From: Cyclobacteriaceae bacterium
GTDB lineage: Bacteria; Bacteroidota; Bacteroidia; Cytophagales; Cyclobacteriaceae
Direction of reading: 5' to 3'
Assembly: GCA_026989535.1 (NCBI GenBank)
Contig: JALSJD010000096.1
Location: 1-64,000 of the forward strand
DNA length: 64,000 bases
This document shows, in pieces, positions 6,572 to 37,981 of this stretch. How positions within the stretch are numbered: position 1 is the first letter of the stretch; each line of letters starts with the position of its first letter. The notes under the pieces were generated by a model that worked only from the letters and a program-made list of their open reading frames with translations, ran no database searches and was not told the DNA's origin. A program made the position numbers and the translations under genes.

Positions 6572-7975
6572 CTAGTTTAACGCTCTGCCCAACGCATACA
6601 TTGTGGTTAGTTTGGCCTTTCTGTTTTGGGTTAATAGCTCAATAAACGTTAGCTGTGTTTTAATAAAACCCACCTCTCGTGTGTTTACCATAAATAAAGA
6701 GCTTTCGCCTATATTAAATAGTTGGCGCTCCCCTTCCAATAAATTGCCTGCATCCTCAACCGTTTGTGCATACAATTCAATTTGTTCTTTGGTGGTACTC
6801 CATTGGTTCCAAGCAGCGATAACCTTATACCTTAATACTTGTTGCTTATTGTTTAGCTTAAGGTTGTTCTCCTGTATTTTTAAATCTGTTAGCTTAAGCA
6901 GCCCTCTTTCTTTTCTTAAAAAAAGAGGCATCTGAAACTCCAACCCCCACGTGTAATTATTAATAGAAAAGTTTGCCATTGATTCGCCCCCTACATACTC
7001 TGTGATGGGGTTGTATTTTAAATTTAGCATTGGCAATAGCTGGTTCTTTTTTAGGCGTTTATCTATTTCTAACTGGTTAATTACATAACGCGATTGGTTT
7101 AACTCTGGGTGGGTATTAATGAGCGAATCTATTTGTACAAAAGGGGGAGGGTTCGTATTTAACCCCATCGTGTTGCTAATAGATACGGGAACGGTGCCTG
7201 CTGCCAACTCTAATGGAACAACGCCTTCTGCCCATAAATAAACGGATAATAAGACCGTGGCATTTTTAAATTCAACTTCTGACTGCTGTAAACCAAGCAT
7301 TCTGTTTTGCACTTGTATGCCTGCTTCTAATGTATCAATAGCTGGGCGATCGCCTATGGCTGCCCCTAGCTTTACGGCATCAAACCTTTCTTTGGCCAGC
7401 CGATAGCCCTCTTTATACACAAACAACGAATTATAGGCTTTAAACCATTCCCAGTAGGTGGTACCCGCCCTGTAAACCAATTCGTTAAGTATAAGTTGTT
7501 GTTCCATCTCAGACACTTGTTGAAACAATCGCGCTTTTTTAAGTTCTGCTCTTCGTTTATCTATTAATAAACCCCTACCTACAGGAAACGATATGCCCGC
7601 ATGCACCAACCCGCTTCCAGGGGTGGTATTTTCTGGATTAAGAAATACTCCTTGGGTTTGTTCATACCCTCCTTTAAGCTCAACCCCAAACCAAGTGGGT
7701 ATTTTTAGCCCTCCATTAATTAAACTGTAATATTGGTTTTCTTTAAAATACTTTTGACTTATATCTGTATAAATTTTAGGGTCAAAGGCTCCTTTGGCGT
7801 ATAATAACGTGGCTTCGCCTTCATAAATTTTTATGTCGGCTTGTTTGGTATATGGGTGTTCTTTTTTTACTATTTCAATAAATTCTTGATAGCTTAAAGT
7901 AACCGTGCTGTCGCTTTGTGCCTGCACATAAAAACAACTGTTTAATACAAACAATGTAGTAATAAGGGCTTTCAT
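6572..7975 (-). CDS. TolC-family outer membrane efflux protein
   Basis: A 467-residue protein with a signal peptide (MKALITTLFVLNSCFYVQAQ) and the heptad-rich helical layout of the OEP/TolC family. It should form the outer-membrane and periplasmic channel of the export machine encoded directly upstream. It is the last gene of the ABC-HlyD-TolC operon, starting 8 bases after the HlyD-type gene ends. The substrate is unknown; no peptide with a double-glycine leader and no C39 peptidase was found nearby. Confidence 0.85.
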   Translation of the reverse strand: MKALITTLFVLNSCFYVQAQSDSTVTLSYQEFIEIVKKEHPYTKQADIKIYEGEATLLYAKGAFDPKIYTDISQKYFKENQYYSLINGGLKIPTWFGVELKGGYEQTQGVFLNPENTTPGSGLVHAGISFPVGRGLLIDKRRAELKKARLFQQVSEMEQQLILNELVYRAGTTYWEWFKAYNSLFVYKEGYRLAKERFDAVKLGAAIGDRPAIDTLEAGIQVQNRMLGLQQSEVEFKNATVLLSVYLWAEGVVPLELAAGTVPVSISNTMGLNTNPPPFVQIDSLINTHPELNQSRYVINQLEIDKRLKKNQLLPMLNLKYNPITEYVGGESMANFSINNYTWGLEFQMPLFLRKERGLLKLTDLKIQENNLKLNNKQQVLRYKVIAAWNQWSTTKEQIELYAQTVEDAGNLLEGERQLFNIGESSLFMVNTREVGFIKTQLTFIELLTQNRKAKLTTMYALGRALN

Positions 7976-9351: not shown

Positions 9352-11068
9352 TTTTATTGGCTTTAAAGTGTACAATATCTTTTAGTTCGTTGTATGTACC
9401 GGTGTGCTGTATTTTACCTGATTTTAATACCACTATTTTGTCTGATGATTTTGCCAAATATGTATTGGATGAAACGGCCACCATTGACCATCTATTTTGT
9501 TTATTGGTTAAAAACTTCATTATCTTTTTTCCCGAAACCTCATCCAGGTGTTCAAATGTGTTTTCTAGCAATAAAAGTTTTGGCTTAGAAGCAATGCTTC
9601 GAGCCAGTAATAGTTTTGTAACTATGCTTTCGGGCAATCTTTTGCCTTGGGCATTAAGCATTGTATTATAGCCTTGGGGTAGCGTTTTTATAAATTCGGT
9701 TAGTTCTAATTCTTCTACAGCCCATTTTACATTTTTAAACGTAGCGGCTTCTCTTCCTAAGGTAATATTATCAAGTACAGTGCCTTCAAAAAGGCGCTCC
9801 ATTGTCATGTGGCTACCTACTTGTTCTCTAATTGAGTTCAAAGAAAGGTTTCCAGCTGGCAGTTTATTATACGATACTGTGCCTTCCTGCACTTGGTACA
9901 AACCTGCCAATATGTATAATAGTGTGCTTTTGCCCGAATTGCTATCGCCTGTTATTAACAGTATTTCGCCTTTATTAACAGATACCGAAATATTATTAAG
10001 TGTTTTTTGATTTGCATCTGGGTAGGTGAAACTTACGTTTTCTATGGCTATTTCTATGCCAGCATCCTCGGGGTTAACCTCTACATTTATCCCGTTTTCC
10101 CGCTCCAACTCTAAATCTGTAACTTGGCCAATTTTTTCTAGTGATGTGAGTATATCATAAATAGACTCAATGCTAAGTATTAATTTTTCAACAGAAGCGA
10201 TAACCGTAAGTACTATAATTTCTGCTGCAATAAACTGACCTATGTTCATCTGCTGATCCATAACAAGAATTCCGCCAATGGCCAGTAAGCCCATAGCTAC
10301 CAAAACTTTAAAGGCTACCATTAAAGAATATTGCTGTACCAAAACTTTAAAGTGGTTTTCGCGGGCCTCTAGATAGCCCTCTACACATTTATCTGTTTTT
10401 TCTAAAGGCAATTCAGATCTGCCTCCCAATTTAAAGGTTGTTGCTGTACGCGACAGCTCTTCTAACCAATGGGCCACTTTATATTTAAATTTCGACTCAA
10501 CCAAACTTGTCCTCATTCCTTTGGCCGCTGTATATCTAAATATGGTATAAACCAACATTAGTAAAGCTATACTAAATAAAATGAAAAATGGATGGTAAAA
10601 CGAAAGCAATAACAAACTAAAAACAACTATAAAAAAAGCAGCTGAAAAATCAATTAATATCTTTGAAAGCCCTTTTTGAACCGTAACAATATCAAAAAAC
10701 CGATTCATTAGCTCTGGCGCATAATGACGGTAAAGTACTTCCATTCTAATTTTTGGAACCCGGTACGAAAACTCAAATGCTGCACGGGTAAAAATTTTTT
10801 GCTGTAGGTTTTCAGTAATACGTAACTGAAATATTTGAAGAACGCCTACTACTGCTATTCCAAGTACTACAAATATTACCAATATTATCCAAGAGGTGTT
10901 TATCTGCCCCCCTTGAATAAGGTTTACAATGGTTTGGATACCTAGTGGTAATGATAAACTAATCAATCCGCTAAATATAGAGTATATATAAACATTGCGT
11001 ACTTCTTTGCTATCTGGTTTTAGCAATTTCCAAAAGCGCTGAACTGGGGTTATTGGGTCGTTATCCAT
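9344..11068 (-). CDS. ABC exporter with a degenerate ATPase domain
   Basis: A 574-residue half-transporter with an N-terminal six-helix membrane domain (about 20-310) and a C-terminal nucleotide-binding domain (about 335-574). Walker A is intact (GDSNSGKST). The other ATPase motifs are altered: the Q-loop glutamine is absent (VGSHMTMERLF), the LSGGQ signature reads LPESI, the Walker B DE pair is EN (LLLLENTFEHLD), and the H-loop histidine is serine (AVSSNTY). There is no C39 peptidase domain. It is the first gene of the operon with HlyD and TolC partners. The reading frame is intact and the neighbours are coupled to it, so this is not simple decay. It may be a slow ATPase, a nucleotide-gated switch or a partner in a heterodimer. 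Confidence 0.88.
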   Translation of the reverse strand: MDNDPITPVQRFWKLLKPDSKEVRNVYIYSIFSGLISLSLPLGIQTIVNLIQGGQINTSWIILVIFVVLGIAVVGVLQIFQLRITENLQQKIFTRAAFEFSYRVPKIRMEVLYRHYAPELMNRFFDIVTVQKGLSKILIDFSAAFFIVVFSLLLLSFYHPFFILFSIALLMLVYTIFRYTAAKGMRTSLVESKFKYKVAHWLEELSRTATTFKLGGRSELPLEKTDKCVEGYLEARENHFKVLVQQYSLMVAFKVLVAMGLLAIGGILVMDQQMNIGQFIAAEIIVLTVIASVEKLILSIESIYDILTSLEKIGQVTDLELERENGINVEVNPEDAGIEIAIENVSFTYPDANQKTLNNISVSVNKGEILLITGDSNSGKSTLLYILAGLYQVQEGTVSYNKLPAGNLSLNSIREQVGSHMTMERLFEGTVLDNITLGREAATFKNVKWAVEELELTEFIKTLPQGYNTMLNAQGKRLPESIVTKLLLARSIASKPKLLLLENTFEHLDEVSGKKIMKFLTNKQNRWSMVAVSSNTYLAKSSDKIVVLKSGKIQHTGTYNELKDIVHFKANKNA

Positions 11069-19761: not shown

Positions 19762-20062
19762 TTTATTAAAGTAAGATAAATCAACAAATTCAAATTTAGG
19801 TCTAAATAAATTTGCGCCCATACTTTCGCTATAAATTAAGTGCAATTGTGGTTAATAATCTCCAATTTTAGACCAAATAGCACATAAATTCGATTTTTTT
19901 TATCATTTATTGAGCATTTCTTGGACATAATTAGTATTTTGCTTTTTCTTTGGCAATTAAATAGGTGCTTTATGCGTTTGTAGCTTAAAAATACATCGTA
20001 AAACCTGTTGAAATAATATGCCTAAGGAAGGTATTTAACAACTGAAAGAGAAAACAATTTTG

Positions 20063-21313
20063 ATGAAAAAAACAGTATATATGAAATCTATTCATAGTGT
20101 ATCAAAAGCATTGGCTATACTAAGCCTTTCGGCATTGATATTTGTGGCTTGTGGTAAAGGAGGCGGTCAACCAAACAGTGAGTATCCGGGGCAGTTTAGT
20201 ACTTCAACAGGTTTGGCATACAGCCAAGATTATGAAGACTCTGCCGGTTATAAAACATTCCCTTTTCATGGACAGCCAGAAGGACCAAACCTTGTTTTTA
20301 TAGAAGGAGGTAGAATGGTGCTTGGTTCTTTTGAAGAAGATGTTATTATGGCGAGAGATAATATTGAAAGAACAGTAACCGTTGCTTCGTTTTATATGGA
20401 TGAAACCGAAGTTGCGAATATTCACTGGTTAGAATATATGTATTATATAGAAGCTTCAGATTCTTCTGCCGCATTTAAAGCAACCATTAACCCTGACCAA
20501 GAAGTATGGAAAGCCCGGTTAGCATTTAACGATCCTTATGCAGAGCATTACTTAAAATACCCAGGGTTTCGTTACTTTCCTGTAGTTGGCGTTAGCTGGC
20601 GACAAGCAACTGATTATTCTGAATGGAGAACAAATGCTGTAAATATGGGATTAGAAGATATAGCCATCGATAATGGCGATTGGGATCCCGATTTAATGGC
20701 AGAAGCAGAATCGGATGGAAGAATTCCATTGGAGTCTGGCATTATCCTTCCTGATTATAGATTGCCTTCTGAGGCCGAGTGGGAGTATGCAGCTCAAGCA
20801 CTTATTGGAACTCAATGGTTAGATGAAAACCAAACCCATAATAGACTATACCCATGGGATGGTCACTCTTTAAGAAATCCTTACGGTAAAGAAATGGGCT
20901 ATTTTTTAGCCAACTTTAAAAGAGGCAGGGGTGATTATGCAGGCGTTGCCGGTAAATTAAATGATGGTGCAATGATTACCGCTTACGTTTATGAATACCC
21001 TCCAAACGATTATGGCCTTTATAATATGGCAGGTAATGTAAATGAGTGGGTACAAGATTTATACCGTCCTCTTTCTTTTCAAGATATGGATGATTTAAAC
21101 CCGATGCGTAGAGATGATTTTCTTGATAATGTAGATAAGTATGATCCGCTAAAGCAATTGATAACAAATACTTCTCGTGTTTATAAAGGGGGTTCTTGGA
21201 AGGATGTTGCTTACTGGTTATCACCAGGAACAAGACGATACTTAGATCAAGATTCTGCCACAGCCACTATCGGTTTTAGATGTGCAATGATTAGAGCAGG
21301 CTCTAATTACTAA
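20063..21313 (+). CDS. gldJ: Gliding-motility lipoprotein GldJ-like (formylglycine-enzyme fold)
   Basis: About 416 residues; the track start is a TTG, so ATG 20063 or the later ATG at 20081 (MKSIHSVSKALAI) is preferred. The lipobox LIFVACG places it in the envelope. The body is an SUMF1/FGE-like domain: GPNLVFIEGGRMVLG, then SFYMDETEVANIHWLEYMYYI, DYRLPSEAEWEYAA, NEWVQDLYRP and a C-terminal GFRCAMIR. The combination of GG-x-M-x-LG with DETEVANIHW is the pattern of GldJ rather than GldK. In Flavobacterium GldJ is needed for gliding and the type IX secretion system. Cytophagales can carry several paralogues, so the exact role is inferred. It lacks other gld genes beside it. Confidence 0.8.
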   Translation: MKKTVYMKSIHSVSKALAILSLSALIFVACGKGGGQPNSEYPGQFSTSTGLAYSQDYEDSAGYKTFPFHGQPEGPNLVFIEGGRMVLGSFEEDVIMARDNIERTVTVASFYMDETEVANIHWLEYMYYIEASDSSAAFKATINPDQEVWKARLAFNDPYAEHYLKYPGFRYFPVVGVSWRQATDYSEWRTNAVNMGLEDIAIDNGDWDPDLMAEAESDGRIPLESGIILPDYRLPSEAEWEYAAQALIGTQWLDENQTHNRLYPWDGHSLRNPYGKEMGYFLANFKRGRGDYAGVAGKLNDGAMITAYVYEYPPNDYGLYNMAGNVNEWVQDLYRPLSFQDMDDLNPMRRDDFLDNVDKYDPLKQLITNTSRVYKGGSWKDVAYWLSPGTRRYLDQDSATATIGFRCAMIRAGSNY

Positions 21314-28702: not shown

Positions 28703-28745
28703 CGTTCCACGTGGAACACTAACAAAATATGTTTCACGTGGAACA
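28703..28745. promoter_or_regulatory. parS: Two parS-like ParB sites before mnmG
   Basis: CGTTCCACGTGGAACA (28703-28718) and TGTTTCACGTGGAACA (28730-28745) match the widespread bacterial parS palindrome TGTTNCACGTGNAACA at 15-16 positions. Centre-to-centre spacing is 27 bases. They lie in the gap between DUF4349 and mnmG, ending 6 bases before the mnmG start. ParB is expected to load here to organise the origin region. parA and parB are not in the window. Confidence 0.75.
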
Positions 28746-28751
28746 TTTGCT

Positions 28752-30629
28752 ATGTTTAAAAAATACGATGTAATTATAGTAGGTGCCGGGCACGCAGGTT
28801 GCGAGGCAGCAGCCGCAGCAGCCAATATGGGTTCGAGCGTATTACTGGTAACCATGAATATGGCTACCATTGCACAAATGAGCTGCAACCCTGCCATGGG
28901 TGGTGTGGCCAAGGGACAAATTGTGCGAGAGATTGATGCACTTGGTGGCTTGTCGGGCATAATATCTGATAAGTCGATGATTCAATTTAGGATGCTCAAC
29001 AAATCGAAAGGCCCTGCGATGTGGAGCCCTCGAACCCAAAACGACAGAATGCTGTTTGCTCAGGAGTGGAGGCTTGCCTTAGAAAAAATTAAAAACCTCG
29101 ATTTTTGGCAAGAGATGGTGAAAGAAATTACCGTTGAAGAGGGGAGGGTAACCGGTGTTATTACAGGAATGGGGCATACTATAAAAGGCAAATCCGTAAT
29201 ACTAACCAACGGCACTTTTTTAAATGGCATCATCCATATTGGCGAAAAGCAATTTGGCGGTGGGCGCACAGCCGAACACGCAGCCACTGGTTTAACCGAA
29301 CAATTGGTTTCGTTAGGGTTTGAGTCTGGTAGAATGAAAACAGGAACTCCCCCAAGAGTGGATGGCCGCTCACTCAATTATGAGTTAATGGAAGAGCAAG
29401 CAGGAGATGAAAACCCAAGTAAGTTTTCTTACACTAATACCAAACCCTTAGCTAAGCAAAGAAGCTGTTATATTACTTACACCAATACCAAAGTACACGA
29501 AATTCTAGAAACTGGCTTTGAGCAATCGCCTATGTTTGCCGGTAGAATACAAGGCATTGGCCCTCGCTATTGCCCATCTATCGAAGATAAAATAAACCGA
29601 TTTGCTGATAAAGACCGACACCAACTATTTGTAGAACCCGAAGGATGGGATACAGTAGAAATATATGTGAATGGTTTTTCTACATCGTTGCCAGAAGATG
29701 TGCAACTAAAAGCACTCAAGCAAATTAAAGGGTTTGAAAATGTGAAAATGTTTCGCCCTGGCTATGCCATCGAATACGATTATTTTCCACCCACTCAACT
29801 TAACCTTACCTTAGAAACCAAACTCATTAAAAATTTATTTTTTGCAGGGCAGATAAACGGAACTACTGGCTACGAAGAAGCAGCAGGCCAAGGCATGATG
29901 GCTGGCATAAATGCCCATCATAAAATCAATAAGTTAGAACCTTTTATCCTTTCCAGATCCGAAGCGTACATTGGTGTGCTCATTGATGACCTTATTAATA
30001 AAGGCACGGAAGAACCCTACCGAATGTTTACCTCAAGAGCAGAGTTTAGAATATTATTAAGGCAGGATAATGCCGATATTCGATTAACCGAAAAAGGGCA
30101 TCGTCTTGGGTTGGCCACTAAAGAAAGCTTGGATAGAGTAGCCACTAAAATTAAACAAGTTGCTGAACTTGAAAAGCTCATTACTACTACCAAAGTAAAA
30201 CCATCGCAAGTAAATACAGCACTTAAAAACATTGGTAGTGCCCAATTAAAAGAAGGCTCGAGTATGGAAAAATTACTTAAAAGACCAGAGCTAGGAATTG
30301 CTCAACTACGAACGTTAGATGAAAACTTTAATAAAAAGCTAACCTCCTACACAAATGAGGTTTTAGAACAAGCCGAAATTAAAATTAAATACGCTTCGTA
30401 TATCGATAAGGAATCGCAATTGGCAGGCAAACTAGAAACGATGGATTTGAAAAAAATACCTGAAGGATTTGACTATAATTCCATCGCTGCTTTATCGGCA
30501 GAGTCGAGAGAAAAGCTATTTAAAATTAAACCTAAAACCTTGGGGCAAGCAAGCAGAATTAGTGGGGTAACCCCTGCAGATATTTCTGTGCTGCTTGTTT
30601 ATTTAAATAATAGAGACTCCCTAAAATAA
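28752..30629 (+). CDS. mnmG: tRNA uridine-5-carboxymethylaminomethyl modification enzyme MnmG
   Basis: A 625-residue FAD enzyme that works with MnmE to make the cmnm5 modification at the wobble uridine of several tRNAs. The FAD Rossmann motif is GAGHAGCEAAAAAANMG (about 12-28). The conserved CNPAMGGVAKG, EIDALGG and GQINGTTGYEEAAGQG motifs are all present, and the C-terminal helical region (SRISGVTPADISVLL) is complete. mnmE is not in the window. Its start lies beside parS-like sites, and in many bacteria mnmG is near oriC. The next gene's ATG overlaps its stop. Confidence 0.97.
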   Translation: MFKKYDVIIVGAGHAGCEAAAAAANMGSSVLLVTMNMATIAQMSCNPAMGGVAKGQIVREIDALGGLSGIISDKSMIQFRMLNKSKGPAMWSPRTQNDRMLFAQEWRLALEKIKNLDFWQEMVKEITVEEGRVTGVITGMGHTIKGKSVILTNGTFLNGIIHIGEKQFGGGRTAEHAATGLTEQLVSLGFESGRMKTGTPPRVDGRSLNYELMEEQAGDENPSKFSYTNTKPLAKQRSCYITYTNTKVHEILETGFEQSPMFAGRIQGIGPRYCPSIEDKINRFADKDRHQLFVEPEGWDTVEIYVNGFSTSLPEDVQLKALKQIKGFENVKMFRPGYAIEYDYFPPTQLNLTLETKLIKNLFFAGQINGTTGYEEAAGQGMMAGINAHHKINKLEPFILSRSEAYIGVLIDDLINKGTEEPYRMFTSRAEFRILLRQDNADIRLTEKGHRLGLATKESLDRVATKIKQVAELEKLITTTKVKPSQVNTALKNIGSAQLKEGSSMEKLLKRPELGIAQLRTLDENFNKKLTSYTNEVLEQAEIKIKYASYIDKESQLAGKLETMDLKKIPEGFDYNSIAALSAESREKLFKIKPKTLGQASRISGVTPADISVLLVYLNNRDSLK

Positions 30630-31510
30630 TGGCATTAGAAAATTTAACCAATTGTCCAGTCTGTAATTCGACCGAATCTAAATTGCACAAAACGGTAAAA
30701 GACTACACGGTTTCGCAAGAGGAGTTCAATATTATGCAATGCAAAAATTGTTCTTTCCTTTATACAAACCCACGGCCTACACCAGATTCATTAGGTGCCT
30801 ATTATAAATCCGATGATTATATATCGCATACCAATAAGAGCAATAGTCCTATACATTTAATTTATAAATTAGCCCGTACCCAAACCCTGCGTTGGAAGTA
30901 TAATTTGGTTAAAAAATCTAAACCCAAATTGCTCTTAGATTACGGCTGTGGTACAGGTCATTTTCTTACCTATTGTAAAAAGAAAGGATTAGAAGTAAAT
31001 GGATTTGAACCTGATCAACAGGCAAGATTAATCGCTAAACAAACACTGGGAGAATCTATTTTTTCATCCACTACTACTATCAAAAGCAAGTTTGATGTTA
31101 TTACTTTATGGCATGTATTAGAACATATACCAAATCTAAATGAAGTAGTTGATTGGCTAAAAAACCACCTTGCCGAAAATGGGCGTTTGGTTATTGCCGT
31201 ACCTAATCCAAACGCTTACGATGCCAAAATGTATGATAAATATTGGGCCGCTTATGATGTACCCCGCCATTTATATCACTTTACAAAAAAAACATTAACA
31301 AAATTAGCAGATAGGCATAGTTTTAGTGTAGAGTCTATCCATCCTATGAAATTAGATTCATTTTACGTAAGCTTATTGAGCAATAAACATAAACATAACC
31401 AAACCAAACCTATAAATTCTTTTTTAAATGGTTTAAAATCAAATAGTTACGCAAATAAAAAGATGGAATACTCAAGCCTTATTTATGTATTAAAACATAC
31501 CAATGTATAG
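30629..31510 (+). CDS. SAM methyltransferase with N-terminal zinc ribbon
   Basis: A 293-residue class I methyltransferase. An N-terminal zinc ribbon (C9/C12 and C38/C41, CPVC and CKNC) precedes motif I (LLLDYGCGTGHFL, about 108-120) and the acidic motif II (GFEPDQ). The HVLEH motif is at about 164. This layout fits methyltransferases that act on sugars, lipids or glycoconjugates; the substrate cannot be named. ATG overlaps the mnmG stop by one base, and the following Ig-like gene starts 8 bases before it ends. Confidence 0.86.
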   Translation: MALENLTNCPVCNSTESKLHKTVKDYTVSQEEFNIMQCKNCSFLYTNPRPTPDSLGAYYKSDDYISHTNKSNSPIHLIYKLARTQTLRWKYNLVKKSKPKLLLDYGCGTGHFLTYCKKKGLEVNGFEPDQQARLIAKQTLGESIFSSTTTIKSKFDVITLWHVLEHIPNLNEVVDWLKNHLAENGRLVIAVPNPNAYDAKMYDKYWAAYDVPRHLYHFTKKTLTKLADRHSFSVESIHPMKLDSFYVSLLSNKHKHNQTKPINSFLNGLKSNSYANKKMEYSSLIYVLKHTNV

Positions 31511-33254
31511 ATTACTCACTGCAATTGCCATTTTGTTAATTTGGAGTGCTTGTGCCAACCGAGTGCCGCCAACAGGTGGCCCTAAAGATGAGACTCCACC
31601 AAAGTTAATTGCTTCCATTCCTAAAGATGGAAACACCAATGTAAGAACTAGAGAAATTACGTTACTCTTTGATGAATTAGTAGTAACTAAAAACATCAAA
31701 AAAGAATTGCTGATTACCCCAAGAATAGATTTTGATTACGAGTACAAAACCAAAAAGAATACTATTATTCTAACACTGGAGGAGTCCTTAGATTCTGCTA
31801 CCACATATACCTTTAATTTTAGAAAATCGCTTGTTGATATAACCGAAGCCAACCCGGCTGTTGATATGGTACTGGCTTTTAGTACAGGTCCTATACTTGA
31901 TACCCTCGAACTTAGCGGCAATATTAACGAGCTTTTTACAGAGAAACCAGTAGAAGAATTAATGGTTGGCTTATACAAGGCCAACGACACATTAAATTTA
32001 TTTAACAGTCCTCCTTATTATTTAGCACAAACCGATGAAAAAGGTGATTATCTTTTCAGAAATTTAAAACCTGATACATACGTACTTAATGCACTTGAAG
32101 ATAGCAATAATAATTTAATTTGTGAGTCTGGCAGGGAGGCTTATGCTTTTTTAGAACACCCTATCCGGCTCGATTCAACAATGATAGCCGATACCTTAAA
32201 ATTACACTCACTAAATATAGACACCTTGCAGCTTAAAAGAACCAGAAACAGTGGTCAATATTTTATAGCCGTTGCCAGTAAATATTTAACAAGTGTAACC
32301 CTTAAAGCTGCTAACGACAGCACACTTTGGTACACCTTAGATAAAGAGCATAAAGAAATAAACGTATATAATACCTTTAACATCAAAGACAGTTTATTGG
32401 TTAAATTGTCAATGACCGATTCACTCAACTCCTCAGTCATTGATACTTTCTATTTAAAATTCCCAGCCAGCGAACGAAAGTACGATACCTACGATACTAA
32501 ACTTAGTGAAGTAACTGTATTTCCTGAAACACGAAAAATTTCATTTAACATTAGCACCTCTAAACCCAGTAAGTTTATTTATAAAGATAGCATTTATATA
32601 AAGGTCGATACCCTGACTACCATACCATTCGACTCCACGTGGAACATTACCATTAACCCAACTAATACGCTATTTGAATTTAGTAATTATTTACCACAAC
32701 CTTATTTAGATTCCATACATGTTAATGATGATGTGGATAGGTCTGCCAGTAGAGGTAGAGGATCCGATAGAGTTTCTCTTTCTGCTGCTAACTTAAAAGA
32801 CAAAGCAAAAGTAGCTGAACCTAAAAACACACAAAGTAGCAGCAAAAATCTCACGTATGCATTGCAAATAGCAGCAGCAAGTTTCCAATCCGTTGAGTCA
32901 GATTCTTCCAAATTACTCACAGATAACTTAAAACCTAAATACGCCAAAGATTTTGGTATTCTTATGGGAGAAATTAATACCTCCTACACCCATTATTTTA
33001 TTCAATTAATAGATGAAAACTTTAAGGTAATAAACGAAATTCCTCAAGCTGATAAATATAAATTTACAAATGTAATTCCTGGTGATTACCTCATTCGAAT
33101 ATTAATTGATAGTAATAAAAATGGAAAATGGGATGCAGGTAATATTTTACTAAACCAATTACCAGAGCCAATTATCATCTATAAAAACGAAGAAGGTATT
33201 AGCAAAACAAGCCTAAGAGCTAACTGGATAGTTAACTTTGATCTTACTTTTTAA
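31503..33254 (+). CDS. Ig-like domain lipoprotein
   Basis: A 583-residue lipoprotein (LLIWSACANR, cysteine at about 17) followed by PPTGGPKDETPP, a motif typical of Bacteroidetes SbsA-type Ig-like surface proteins. An Ig-like domain (about 30-125) is followed by repeated beta segments and a C-terminal domain ending in LLNQLPEPIIIY. It is probably exposed on the outer membrane. A degenerate parS-like sequence lies inside at 32631-32646. The stop precedes the putative origin by only two bases. Confidence 0.82.
   Translation: MYRLLTAIAILLIWSACANRVPPTGGPKDETPPKLIASIPKDGNTNVRTREITLLFDELVVTKNIKKELLITPRIDFDYEYKTKKNTIILTLEESLDSATTYTFNFRKSLVDITEANPAVDMVLAFSTGPILDTLELSGNINELFTEKPVEELMVGLYKANDTLNLFNSPPYYLAQTDEKGDYLFRNLKPDTYVLNALEDSNNNLICESGREAYAFLEHPIRLDSTMIADTLKLHSLNIDTLQLKRTRNSGQYFIAVASKYLTSVTLKAANDSTLWYTLDKEHKEINVYNTFNIKDSLLVKLSMTDSLNSSVIDTFYLKFPASERKYDTYDTKLSEVTVFPETRKISFNISTSKPSKFIYKDSIYIKVDTLTTIPFDSTWNITINPTNTLFEFSNYLPQPYLDSIHVNDDVDRSASRGRGSDRVSLSAANLKDKAKVAEPKNTQSSSKNLTYALQIAAASFQSVESDSSKLLTDNLKPKYAKDFGILMGEINTSYTHYFIQLIDENFKVINEIPQADKYKFTNVIPGDYLIRILIDSNKNGKWDAGNILLNQLPEPIIIYKNEEGISKTSLRANWIVNFDLTF
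32631..32646. promoter_or_regulatory. Degenerate parS-like site inside the Ig-like gene
   Basis: GACTCCACGTGGAACA agrees with the palindrome TGTTCCACGTGGAACA at 13 of 16 bases. It lies 600 bases from the putative origin. With three mismatches in one arm it may be a weak ParB site or chance. Confidence 0.35.
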
Positions 33255-33728
33255 CTGTGGATAACTACAAAACTAACTGTTAACAAACTACAAGTTATAA
33301 ACAGCCACTTTAAAAACACTGCATATTTTAGATATGTTAGCACCACCACTGTAATTAACTTTGGTAAGTACTAAGTTATAAAGATTTAATAAACAGTTAA
33401 TCACCAAAAAGTTTTCAACACAACCAAAAGTGTATAACTTATGGATAAAATTAATAAATTGATTTTCAATAAATTAACTGTTTTATAAAATAGAGTAATC
33501 CACAAAAACGGGTATATTTATAAACAATTGATTTAATAAAATAGTAGCATAAAAACTTATGCACAAATTCACATAGCTAATAATTAATAATAGATATTTA
33601 TATATATATAATAATAATATATAGTTGAATAAATACGTGGATAACCCAGTAACGTTTTATATTCGTTAATAAAATTCCGTAAAGGTTAGGGAATTAAACC
33701 AAAAGGGTAATAGCCCTGCGATTAAATT
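33255..33728. other. oriC: Putative chromosomal replication origin (oriC)
   Basis: This 474-base gene-free stretch is strongly AT-rich. It contains one perfect DnaA box (TGTGGATAA, 33256-33264) and four boxes with one mismatch: TATGGATAA (33440-33448), TAATCCACA (33496-33504), TTATGCACA (33557-33565) and CGTGGATAA (33636-33644). A weaker TTTTCAACA is at 33412. A run of almost pure A/T at 33580-33635 would serve as an unwinding element. Two parS-like sites lie about 4.5 kb to the left beside mnmG. dnaA is not in the window, and the flanking genes on both sides point the same way, which is a caveat. Confidence 0.7.
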
Positions 33729-35552
33729 ATGAAGTCATTTTTTCAAATTATTTTAATAGGCATATTTATTACCTTAAATACCAAAGTAATAGCACAAAAA
33801 ACAAGCATTAATTTAGCGCAGCAATACTATGCCAATGGCGAATTAGATAAAGCCTTGGATACCTATAATAAATTAGCAAAAAACCAATCAAACTGGGCAA
33901 TTATTCATACACAATATTTTTCGCTACTTATCCAATTAAATGAGTTTCAAAAAGCGAATAAATACATTACTAAAATTAGTAGAGCATATCCAAAAAACAC
34001 GCATTATAAAATTGATAAAGGCAGCTTAATTCTTGCTGAAAAAGGAGAGGCTAGAAAAAAGCAATATTTCGAAAGTTTAAGAAAGCAATTTTCGGAAGAC
34101 CCTTTTACCTCACGCAAGGCTGCTCAGTATTATCTTCAAAAAGGAGAGCGAAACGAGGCTGTTGCTGTGTTAATTTTGGCCAGAGAAAAATCTGGAGACC
34201 CTGCATTATTTGCCTTAGACCTTGCCAATATTTATAGGTATATAAATAAAAAACAATTGATGATTGAAGAGTATATTTTATTTGCCAACACCAATCCAAC
34301 GAATGTAAGGTATGTAAAAAATTCGTTGCAAGTAACGCTAACAAAACCAGCAGACATTCAGAACTTAGAAAGCTATCTTTTTAGCAAAATACAAGACGAC
34401 CCTGAAAATAGTGTATACATAGAATTGCTTATTTGGGCTAACATTCAAAACAAAAATTTTGGGAGTGCTTTTATTCAGGCACGTGCCCTCGATAGGCGTT
34501 TGTTGCAGGGAGGAAAACCGCTATTAGAAATTGGAAAAATGGCTTTATCTAATCAAGATTATAGTTCGGCTCAAAAAATTTACGCCTACATTATGGCCAC
34601 TTATCCTGGCAGTAATATTGGTATTAAAGCAGAACTGTGGAATATTACCACCAAAGAAGAACAAATTAAAAACACCTACCCTGTAAGCGAAGAATCGTTA
34701 TTGCAACTAACCAAGTTGTATAAAAATTACATTGGGCAATATCCTACCAATAAATTGGCTTACAAAGCGCAGCTTCAACTCGCATTAATTGAAGGATATT
34801 ATCTTAATAGAAAAGCAGAAGCAATTATATCCTTACAGCAATTAATAGAAAACCCACGAGTAAATTCACAATTAAAATCGGAGGCCAAACTCACCTTGGC
34901 AGATATTTATTTATTAAATGAAGAACCGTGGGAATCGACTTTGCTTTATGCCCAAGTGGATAAAACCATGAAAGAAACGCCCATTGGTTATAAGGCTAAA
35001 ATAAAGCGAGCAAAACTTGCCTATTACCAAGGCGAGTTTGAGTTAGCACAGGCAATATTAGATATTTTAAAATTGGCCACTAGTAGAGAAATTGCCAACG
35101 ATGCCCTCGACCTTAGTATTTTTATTAAAGAAAACACCGTATTTGATAGCACTCATGCTGCATTAAAAACGTATGCTGCCATAGAATTATTATTATACCA
35201 ACATAAAAACGAGCAAGTATTAGCAACGATTGATACGGTGATTAATTATTTTAAAGGGCAAAGTTTAGAAGACAACTTTATAATGCTAAAAGCAACTGAG
35301 CTTAAAAAGAGTGGCGATTTTAATGGTGCAGCAACTAATTATGCTCAAATTGTAAACAATTTTCCAATGGGTGTGCTAGCCGATAAAGCGTTGTTTTTAC
35401 AAGCCAGCCTTTACCACAATAATTTGCATAATTATGAAAAGGCACAAGAACTCTATGTGCGTCTGCTAAAAGAATATCCCGGTAGTGTGTATGTAGCCGA
35501 GGCGCGAAAACAGTTTCGGATTCTTCGTGGCGATTTTGAACCCTCGAGCTAA
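33729..35552 (+). CDS. Secreted TPR protein
   Basis: A 607-residue protein with a signal peptide (MKSFFQIILIGIFITLNTKVIAQ) and TPR-like helical repeats along its length. Examples are AQQYYANGELDKALDTYNKL near the N-terminus and YEKAQELYVRLLKEYPGSVY near the C-terminus. A YfgL/BamD-like role in the envelope or a scaffold role is possible, but nothing specific is visible. It is the first gene to the right of the putative origin and is followed by a 240-base gap. Confidence 0.83.
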   Translation: MKSFFQIILIGIFITLNTKVIAQKTSINLAQQYYANGELDKALDTYNKLAKNQSNWAIIHTQYFSLLIQLNEFQKANKYITKISRAYPKNTHYKIDKGSLILAEKGEARKKQYFESLRKQFSEDPFTSRKAAQYYLQKGERNEAVAVLILAREKSGDPALFALDLANIYRYINKKQLMIEEYILFANTNPTNVRYVKNSLQVTLTKPADIQNLESYLFSKIQDDPENSVYIELLIWANIQNKNFGSAFIQARALDRRLLQGGKPLLEIGKMALSNQDYSSAQKIYAYIMATYPGSNIGIKAELWNITTKEEQIKNTYPVSEESLLQLTKLYKNYIGQYPTNKLAYKAQLQLALIEGYYLNRKAEAIISLQQLIENPRVNSQLKSEAKLTLADIYLLNEEPWESTLLYAQVDKTMKETPIGYKAKIKRAKLAYYQGEFELAQAILDILKLATSREIANDALDLSIFIKENTVFDSTHAALKTYAAIELLLYQHKNEQVLATIDTVINYFKGQSLEDNFIMLKATELKKSGDFNGAATNYAQIVNNFPMGVLADKALFLQASLYHNNLHNYEKAQELYVRLLKEYPGSVYVAEARKQFRILRGDFEPSS

Positions 35553-37780: not shown

Positions 37781-37981
37781 TAGAGGTAGGCATTTACGTA
37801 CATATTTAATTTAGGTGTTTTTCTTACTTAATGGTAACACTCAAATTTTATAGCCGTCATTCCTGCGTAGGCAGGAATCCGTACATATGGTTAAGTTATG
37901 GAATTGAAAAATTTTGTACCTTAATATTCCATATTGACATATTTATCGCTATTGGTGTATGTATATAAATGCCTACCTCTA
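37781..37981. mobile_element. MITE-like element with 8-bp target duplication
   Basis: The ends TAGAGGTAGGCATTTA and its inverse complement are perfect over 16 bases, and 22 of 24 match when extended inward. TCGTTTAT directly flanks both ends (37773-37780 and 37982-37989), as expected of an 8-bp target duplication. The 201-base element has no transposase ORF. It contains a perfect hairpin (ATTCCTGC-GTAG-GCAGGAAT, 37859-37878) of a widespread repeat type. It sits between the acyl-CoA ligase and the next gene, and the region 37678-37772 to its left holds nothing recognised. Confidence 0.75.

Follow-up and report, generated by a model that had tools for sequence, protein, structure and literature searches.

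A probable chromosomal replication origin between an Ig-like and a TPR protein gene downstream of mnmG in a Cytophagales-type bacterium

The chromosomal replication origin, oriC, of Escherichia coli is flanked by gidA and mioC, and gidA (mnmG) is a classic gene of origin regions. The gidA–mioC placement of oriC is also found in Yersinia pestis (PMC10225481). In Bacteroidetes, oriC is commonly located far from dnaA (PMC4755523, citing DoriC; Prevotella intermedia), and for two Flavobacteriaceae, Mariniflexile litorale (PMC11278836) and strain KMM 8389T (PMC12843772), Ori-Finder 2022 has placed it at mnmG. Within the Cytophagales, oriC plasmids of Cytophaga hutchinsonii were reported by Xu et al. 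(2012), as cited in PMC5891637. Our literature search returned no paper holding both “Cyclobacteriaceae” and “oriC”; the origins of complete relatives are likely to have been predicted already in DoriC.

Here we analysed a gap of 474 bases at positions 33255–33728 of the window, by which we mean the whole 64-kb stretch of DNA. The gap almost certainly is the chromosomal replication origin of this Cytophagales-type bacterium. This assignment is based on computation: a conserved cluster of DnaA boxes, an unstable AT-rich stretch, a local skew minimum near the gap in relatives, and the location of parS sites. As is typical of an oriC, the gap combines an intergenic box cluster with an adjacent AT-rich predicted unwinding element, its position and boxes are conserved, and parS lies nearby. 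We infer that it is here that DnaA binds, the strands open, helicase is loaded and the forks start.

Gene neighbourhood and DnaA boxes of the gap

The gap is non-coding, extends from the stop codon of an Ig-like gene to a TPR gene, and has a G+C content of 24.5%. The gene order in this region is a DUF4349 gene, two parS-like sites, mnmG, a methyltransferase gene, the Ig-like (Big_5) gene, the gap, the TPR gene, an acyl-CoA ligase-like gene and a Mg-chelatase/ComM-like gene. Of these, mnmG and the methyltransferase, Ig-like and TPR genes lie on the + strand. The mnmG gene (28752–30629; TIGR00136, E = 2.4e-254) ends 2.6 kb upstream of the gap and is separated from it by two genes, which encode a methyltransferase-domain protein (30629–31510; Pfam Methyltransf_23) and the Ig-like protein of the left flank (31503–33254; Pfam). 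The complete relative G036 carries genes of 294 and 574 amino acids, respectively, at the same places. The right flank is formed by the TPR protein gene (33729–35552; Pfam TPR), which served as the anchor for locating the orthologous gap in other genomes. That the genes on both sides point the same way had been raised against an origin in the preliminary description. The arrangement is indeed co-directional, but it loses its force as an objection: in G036 the gap likewise lies between co-directional genes of matching sizes, and since the skew there supports an origin, co-direction is a trait of the family.

The two parS-like sites, GTTCCACGTGGAAC at 28704–28717 and GTTTCACGTGGAAC at 28731–28744, are located upstream of mnmG, 4.5 kb from the gap, as had been proposed. 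Both fit the pattern GTTNCACGTGNAAC and are its sole matches in the 3.82-Mb, 252-contig draft genome, which encodes one ParB_N protein elsewhere (contig C209). Two further elements of the window were observed. A gene for a GldJ-type gliding-motility lipoprotein (TIGR03530) lies at 20060–21313, 13 kb from the origin, and a short palindrome, ccgtcattcctgcgtaggcaggaatccg, at 37857–37885 in a gene-poor region looks by eye like a small repeat element.

The count of one perfect and four near-perfect DnaA boxes given in the preliminary description was reproduced exactly, so that the gap holds five boxes with at most one mismatch. The perfect box, TTATCCACA, occupies 33256–33264 on the − strand, immediately past the upstream stop codon. 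Single mismatches are found in TTATCCATA (33440–33448, − strand), in TAATCCACA (33496–33504, + strand), in a box at 33557 that belongs to the tandem described below, and in TTATCCACG (33636–33644, − strand), which bounds the AT-rich stretch towards the TPR gene. Alignment with two genus-level relatives, loci L085 and L003, identified a further, degenerate box with two mismatches, TTTTCAACA, at 33412–33420 on the + strand; its position is kept in both, as TTTTCAACA in L085 and CTATCCACA in L003. In the same alignment a box likewise lies near the end of the Ig-like gene in both relatives, corresponding to that at 33256, and GTGGATAA at the 33636 box is retained in both. Box positions are thus kept despite sequence drift, with the tandem module the best kept of all. 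Genome G093, of the same genus, in which the gap is present at its TPR end only, stood outside this alignment.

Such a density is far above chance. When the gap was shuffled 20,000 times with its dinucleotides preserved, the shuffled sequences contained 0.15 boxes on average and never more than 3, and none reached 5. The gap is also the densest cluster in 436 kb of its own genome, DNA that had been picked largely for containing perfect boxes, and no other 465-bp stretch there has five. The fact that this genome has a single perfect box in the gap was counted against an origin. At 33464–33476 (+ strand) we read from the alignment a weak IHF/HU-like match, WATCAANNNNTTR, which differs at one position from the IHF/HU consensus and has counterparts in L003 and L085 with no mismatch; an IHF/HU-like site at this place is speculative. 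An Rfam search over the window returned a single tRNA and no match in the gap, which makes an RNA element there unlikely.

The AT-rich stretch and the tandem-box module

The nearly pure A/T stretch noted beside the boxes was borne out by a nearest-neighbour stability profile, in which no other 50 bp of the 64-kb window are as unstable as 33573–33623. The gap also contains the window's least stable DNA when the profile is calculated over 80, 100, 150, 300 or 474 bp. We therefore predict that 33573–33623 is the duplex-unwinding element.

Two tandem DnaA boxes on the + strand at 33557–33573, placed 8 bp apart, face this stretch: TTATGCACA, with its one mismatch, at 33557, and the degenerate AAATTCACA. 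After a 3-bp spacer they are followed by CTAATAATTAATAATAG (33577–33593, + strand), a run of triplets resembling a DnaA-trio, so that the complete module at 33557–33593 reads TTATGCACAAATTCACA, the spacer TAG, and then CTAATAATTAATAATAG. Around 55 Cytophagales loci show the same succession of two co-oriented boxes 8 bp apart, a short spacer, TAATAA-type triplets and AT-rich DNA; the spacer is G/C-rich in most relatives and TAG in the window. A strict version of the tandem-box pattern, searched in 59 genomes of the order, gave 2 matches and none in reversed controls, the pattern being too strict.

According to a published rule, a basal unwinding system (BUS) comprises one or more DnaA boxes and at least three 3′-NAN-5′ triplets within 16 bp (PMC8287927). 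The triplets that follow the tandem boxes and the 3-bp spacer in the window are CTA ATA ATT. Read by eye, and with a criterion that is loose in AT-rich DNA, they fit the rule only if the strand polarity that we assumed in reading 33577–33593 as a DnaA-trio is right.

The arrangement of these elements suggests how the origin might work. DnaA-ATP would bind the box array and, from the co-oriented boxes at 33557–33573, could spread over the 3-bp spacer onto the adjoining TAATA-rich strand. The AT-rich stretch at 33573–33623, between the tandem boxes and the inverted box at 33636, would then melt, helicase would be loaded, and two forks would depart in opposite directions. ParB bound to the pair of parS sites 4.5 kb from the gap may organise and segregate the newly copied origin.

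Evidence from relatives and alternative locations

The TPR orthologue was matched in 77 of 99 genomes of the family, most at E < 1e-100. Upstream of it, in up to 800 bases before the gene at each locus, 30 family genomes hold 174 boxes in 22.2 kb (7.8 per kb), compared with 41 boxes within the TPR genes (53.8 kb) and 13 in the downstream DNA (41.9 kb) at 30 loci (0.3–0.8 per kb). The comparison of the gap among relatives that had been suggested as a check thus finds that the orthologous gap keeps its box clusters throughout the family. When the AT-rich intergenic stretches of 150 bp or more in the fetched DNA (429 in all) were ranked by boxes, G092, G036 and G030 supplied the top three, in each case with their orthologous gap. 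An MnmG search returned loci from many Bacteroidota; its nearest named hits, L003 and L028, are both Cyclobacteriaceae MAGs, and the family name used here rests on them. Of the 46 best, Cytophagales-type loci (L003–L048), 33 have at least six boxes within 500 bp, in a cluster that lies 3.7–4.8 kb downstream from where mnmG starts. Most also carry parS directly upstream of mnmG, and in all seven whole genomes tested the parS pattern matches within 5 kb of the gap only. In several loci of Spirosomaceae type (Larkinella, Dyadobacter, Runella, Fibrella; L022, L025, L030, L033–L037, L042, L046 and L048) the box cluster linked to mnmG is retained but no GTTYCACGTGRAAC parS is seen near mnmG; some of the contigs end near the locus.

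Box clusters exist outside origins as well, and the gap might accordingly be a promoter under DnaA control or a site that titrates DnaA (datA- or DARS-like), with the true origin elsewhere. One such case is a second cluster 3′ of a ClC+CBS channel gene, at positions 10121–10227 of locus L246 in this genome (about 30121 of contig C212) and at 10068–10174 of locus L115 in G036 (about 650068 of contig C1). Its order is similar in both, with two + boxes 20 bp apart followed by an inverted TTGTCCACA. Among the matches listed, G028 and G014 have a perfect box 113–170 bp past the ClC orthologue, and G012 and G092 have none near it. In G036 and G028, roughly 190–260 kb separate the ClC site from the origin. 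Nevertheless, the local skew minimum of the relatives and the parS sites fall at the gap and not at the ClC site, and the gap has more boxes and an AT-rich unwinding stretch; a mere promoter cluster was rejected on the parS location together with the genome-wide skew fit and the box ranking in relatives. We consider a regulatory or titrating role in place of an origin very unlikely. The ClC-side cluster itself could be a datA- or DARS-like site. To our knowledge, no datA- or DARS-like initiation regulator has been described in Bacteroidota. It is possible, as a tentative extension, that the Cytophagales share one ancestral layout (parS, mnmG, two genes, a box array with the tandem-box and TAATA-triplet unwinding module, TPR) and that several relatives add a dedicated DnaA-box site 3′ of the ClC gene as a regulator of this kind. 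Another group of boxes in this genome, at positions 6831–6965 of locus L232 (contig C236), lies in the intergenic DNA that separates a PycTM (Pycsar effector-like) gene from a DUF7003 gene and consists of two perfect boxes 10 bp apart with a third, degenerate box.

GC skew, another check that had been proposed, was followed in five single-contig relatives as cumulative skew over 160–400 kb of contiguous DNA around the gap. In the stretches read, a local minimum lies within 44 kb of the orthologous gap in all five, at 44 kb in G036, 27 kb in G012, 15 kb in G092, 8 kb in G030 and 26 bp (0.03 kb) in G028. Of the refuting outcomes named in the preliminary description, neither a loss of the boxes from this gap nor a skew minimum elsewhere was seen in the relatives. 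The displacement of 8–44 kb in four of them was counted against an origin in the gap, and as it is always directed towards or beyond mnmG, replication might actually start tens of kb from the box gap in the direction of mnmG, the gap being a mere neighbour. The minimum of G028, however, is 26 bp from the TPR start, a small displacement is expected from gene orientation, and in four of the five relatives the 160–400 kb contain no further box cluster comparable to the gap, the fifth, G028, having one other three-box site 67 kb away. A displaced start is thus even less probable than a regulatory site, and the gap remains the preferred location. An unbiased two-breakpoint circular fit to 12–20 samples of 20 kb over each of the five chromosomes placed the origin in the interval of the gap in four; in G092 that interval ranked third (4036 vs 4570). 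On the window's own contig, part of the 252-contig draft, the skew reaches its window-wide minimum near 20 kb, and the position at 33.5 kb is a local minimum only, which was also counted against the gap. The third-codon-position skew, −0.11 and −0.06 left of the gap and 0.00 to its right, and the strands of the genes on the right (23 on + and 7 on −) agree with an origin, an agreement that is weak on its own.

An origin beside dnaA, with an incidental cluster in the gap, would match many bacteria and the fact that some relatives' assemblies begin at dnaA, but it has hardly any probability left: dnaA is on a separate contig here (C151), the 1.6 kb to each side of it contain no box with at most one mismatch, and in the five single-contig relatives dnaA is 0.86–2.4 Mb from the gap and its interval is outscored in the skew fit by that of the gap in every case, which refutes such an origin for them, in line with the distance between origin and dnaA in published Bacteroidetes (PMC4755523). 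The gap is accordingly not a dnaA-adjacent oriC, and the placement between the Ig-like and TPR genes given in the preliminary description is supported by the boxes, skew and parS of relatives.

Comparison with known origins

Fixing the replication start for this uncultured lineage and its family allows assemblies, which are often begun at dnaA, to be oriented correctly, growth rates to be derived from coverage, and oriC plasmids to be designed for Cytophagales. As Bacteroidetes origins are commonly distant from dnaA, the placement of the gap is no anomaly, and given the published Bacteroidetes and Flavobacteriaceae origins the type is already known; the gap is a new, well-supported example of it. 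With the Bacteroidota oriC regions predicted by DoriC and Ori-Finder it shares a box cluster at a GC-skew switch, far from dnaA. Whereas the Flavobacteriaceae origins lie next to mnmG, the gap is found 2.6 kb downstream, between the Ig-like and TPR genes. It resembles E. coli oriC in being near mnmG and in having DnaA boxes, an AT-rich unwinding element and, weakly, an IHF-like site, but differs in the two genes that separate it from mnmG and in the presence of parS sites. Within the Cytophagales, the oriC plasmids reported for C. hutchinsonii provide an experimental example of a chromosomal origin that works.

The tandem-box, spacer and TAATA module appears to resemble a Bacillus-type basal unwinding system. 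It shares with the B. subtilis BUS (PMC6669920, PMC8287927, PMC10721633) the co-oriented box pair, the short spacer, the triplet repeats and the AT-rich DNA. In contrast to that system, its triplets are of the TAATA type and less regular than the 3′-GAT-5′ consensus, and dnaA is not adjacent. Conserved as it is, it offers a defined substrate on which to test Bacillus-type unwinding in Bacteroidota.
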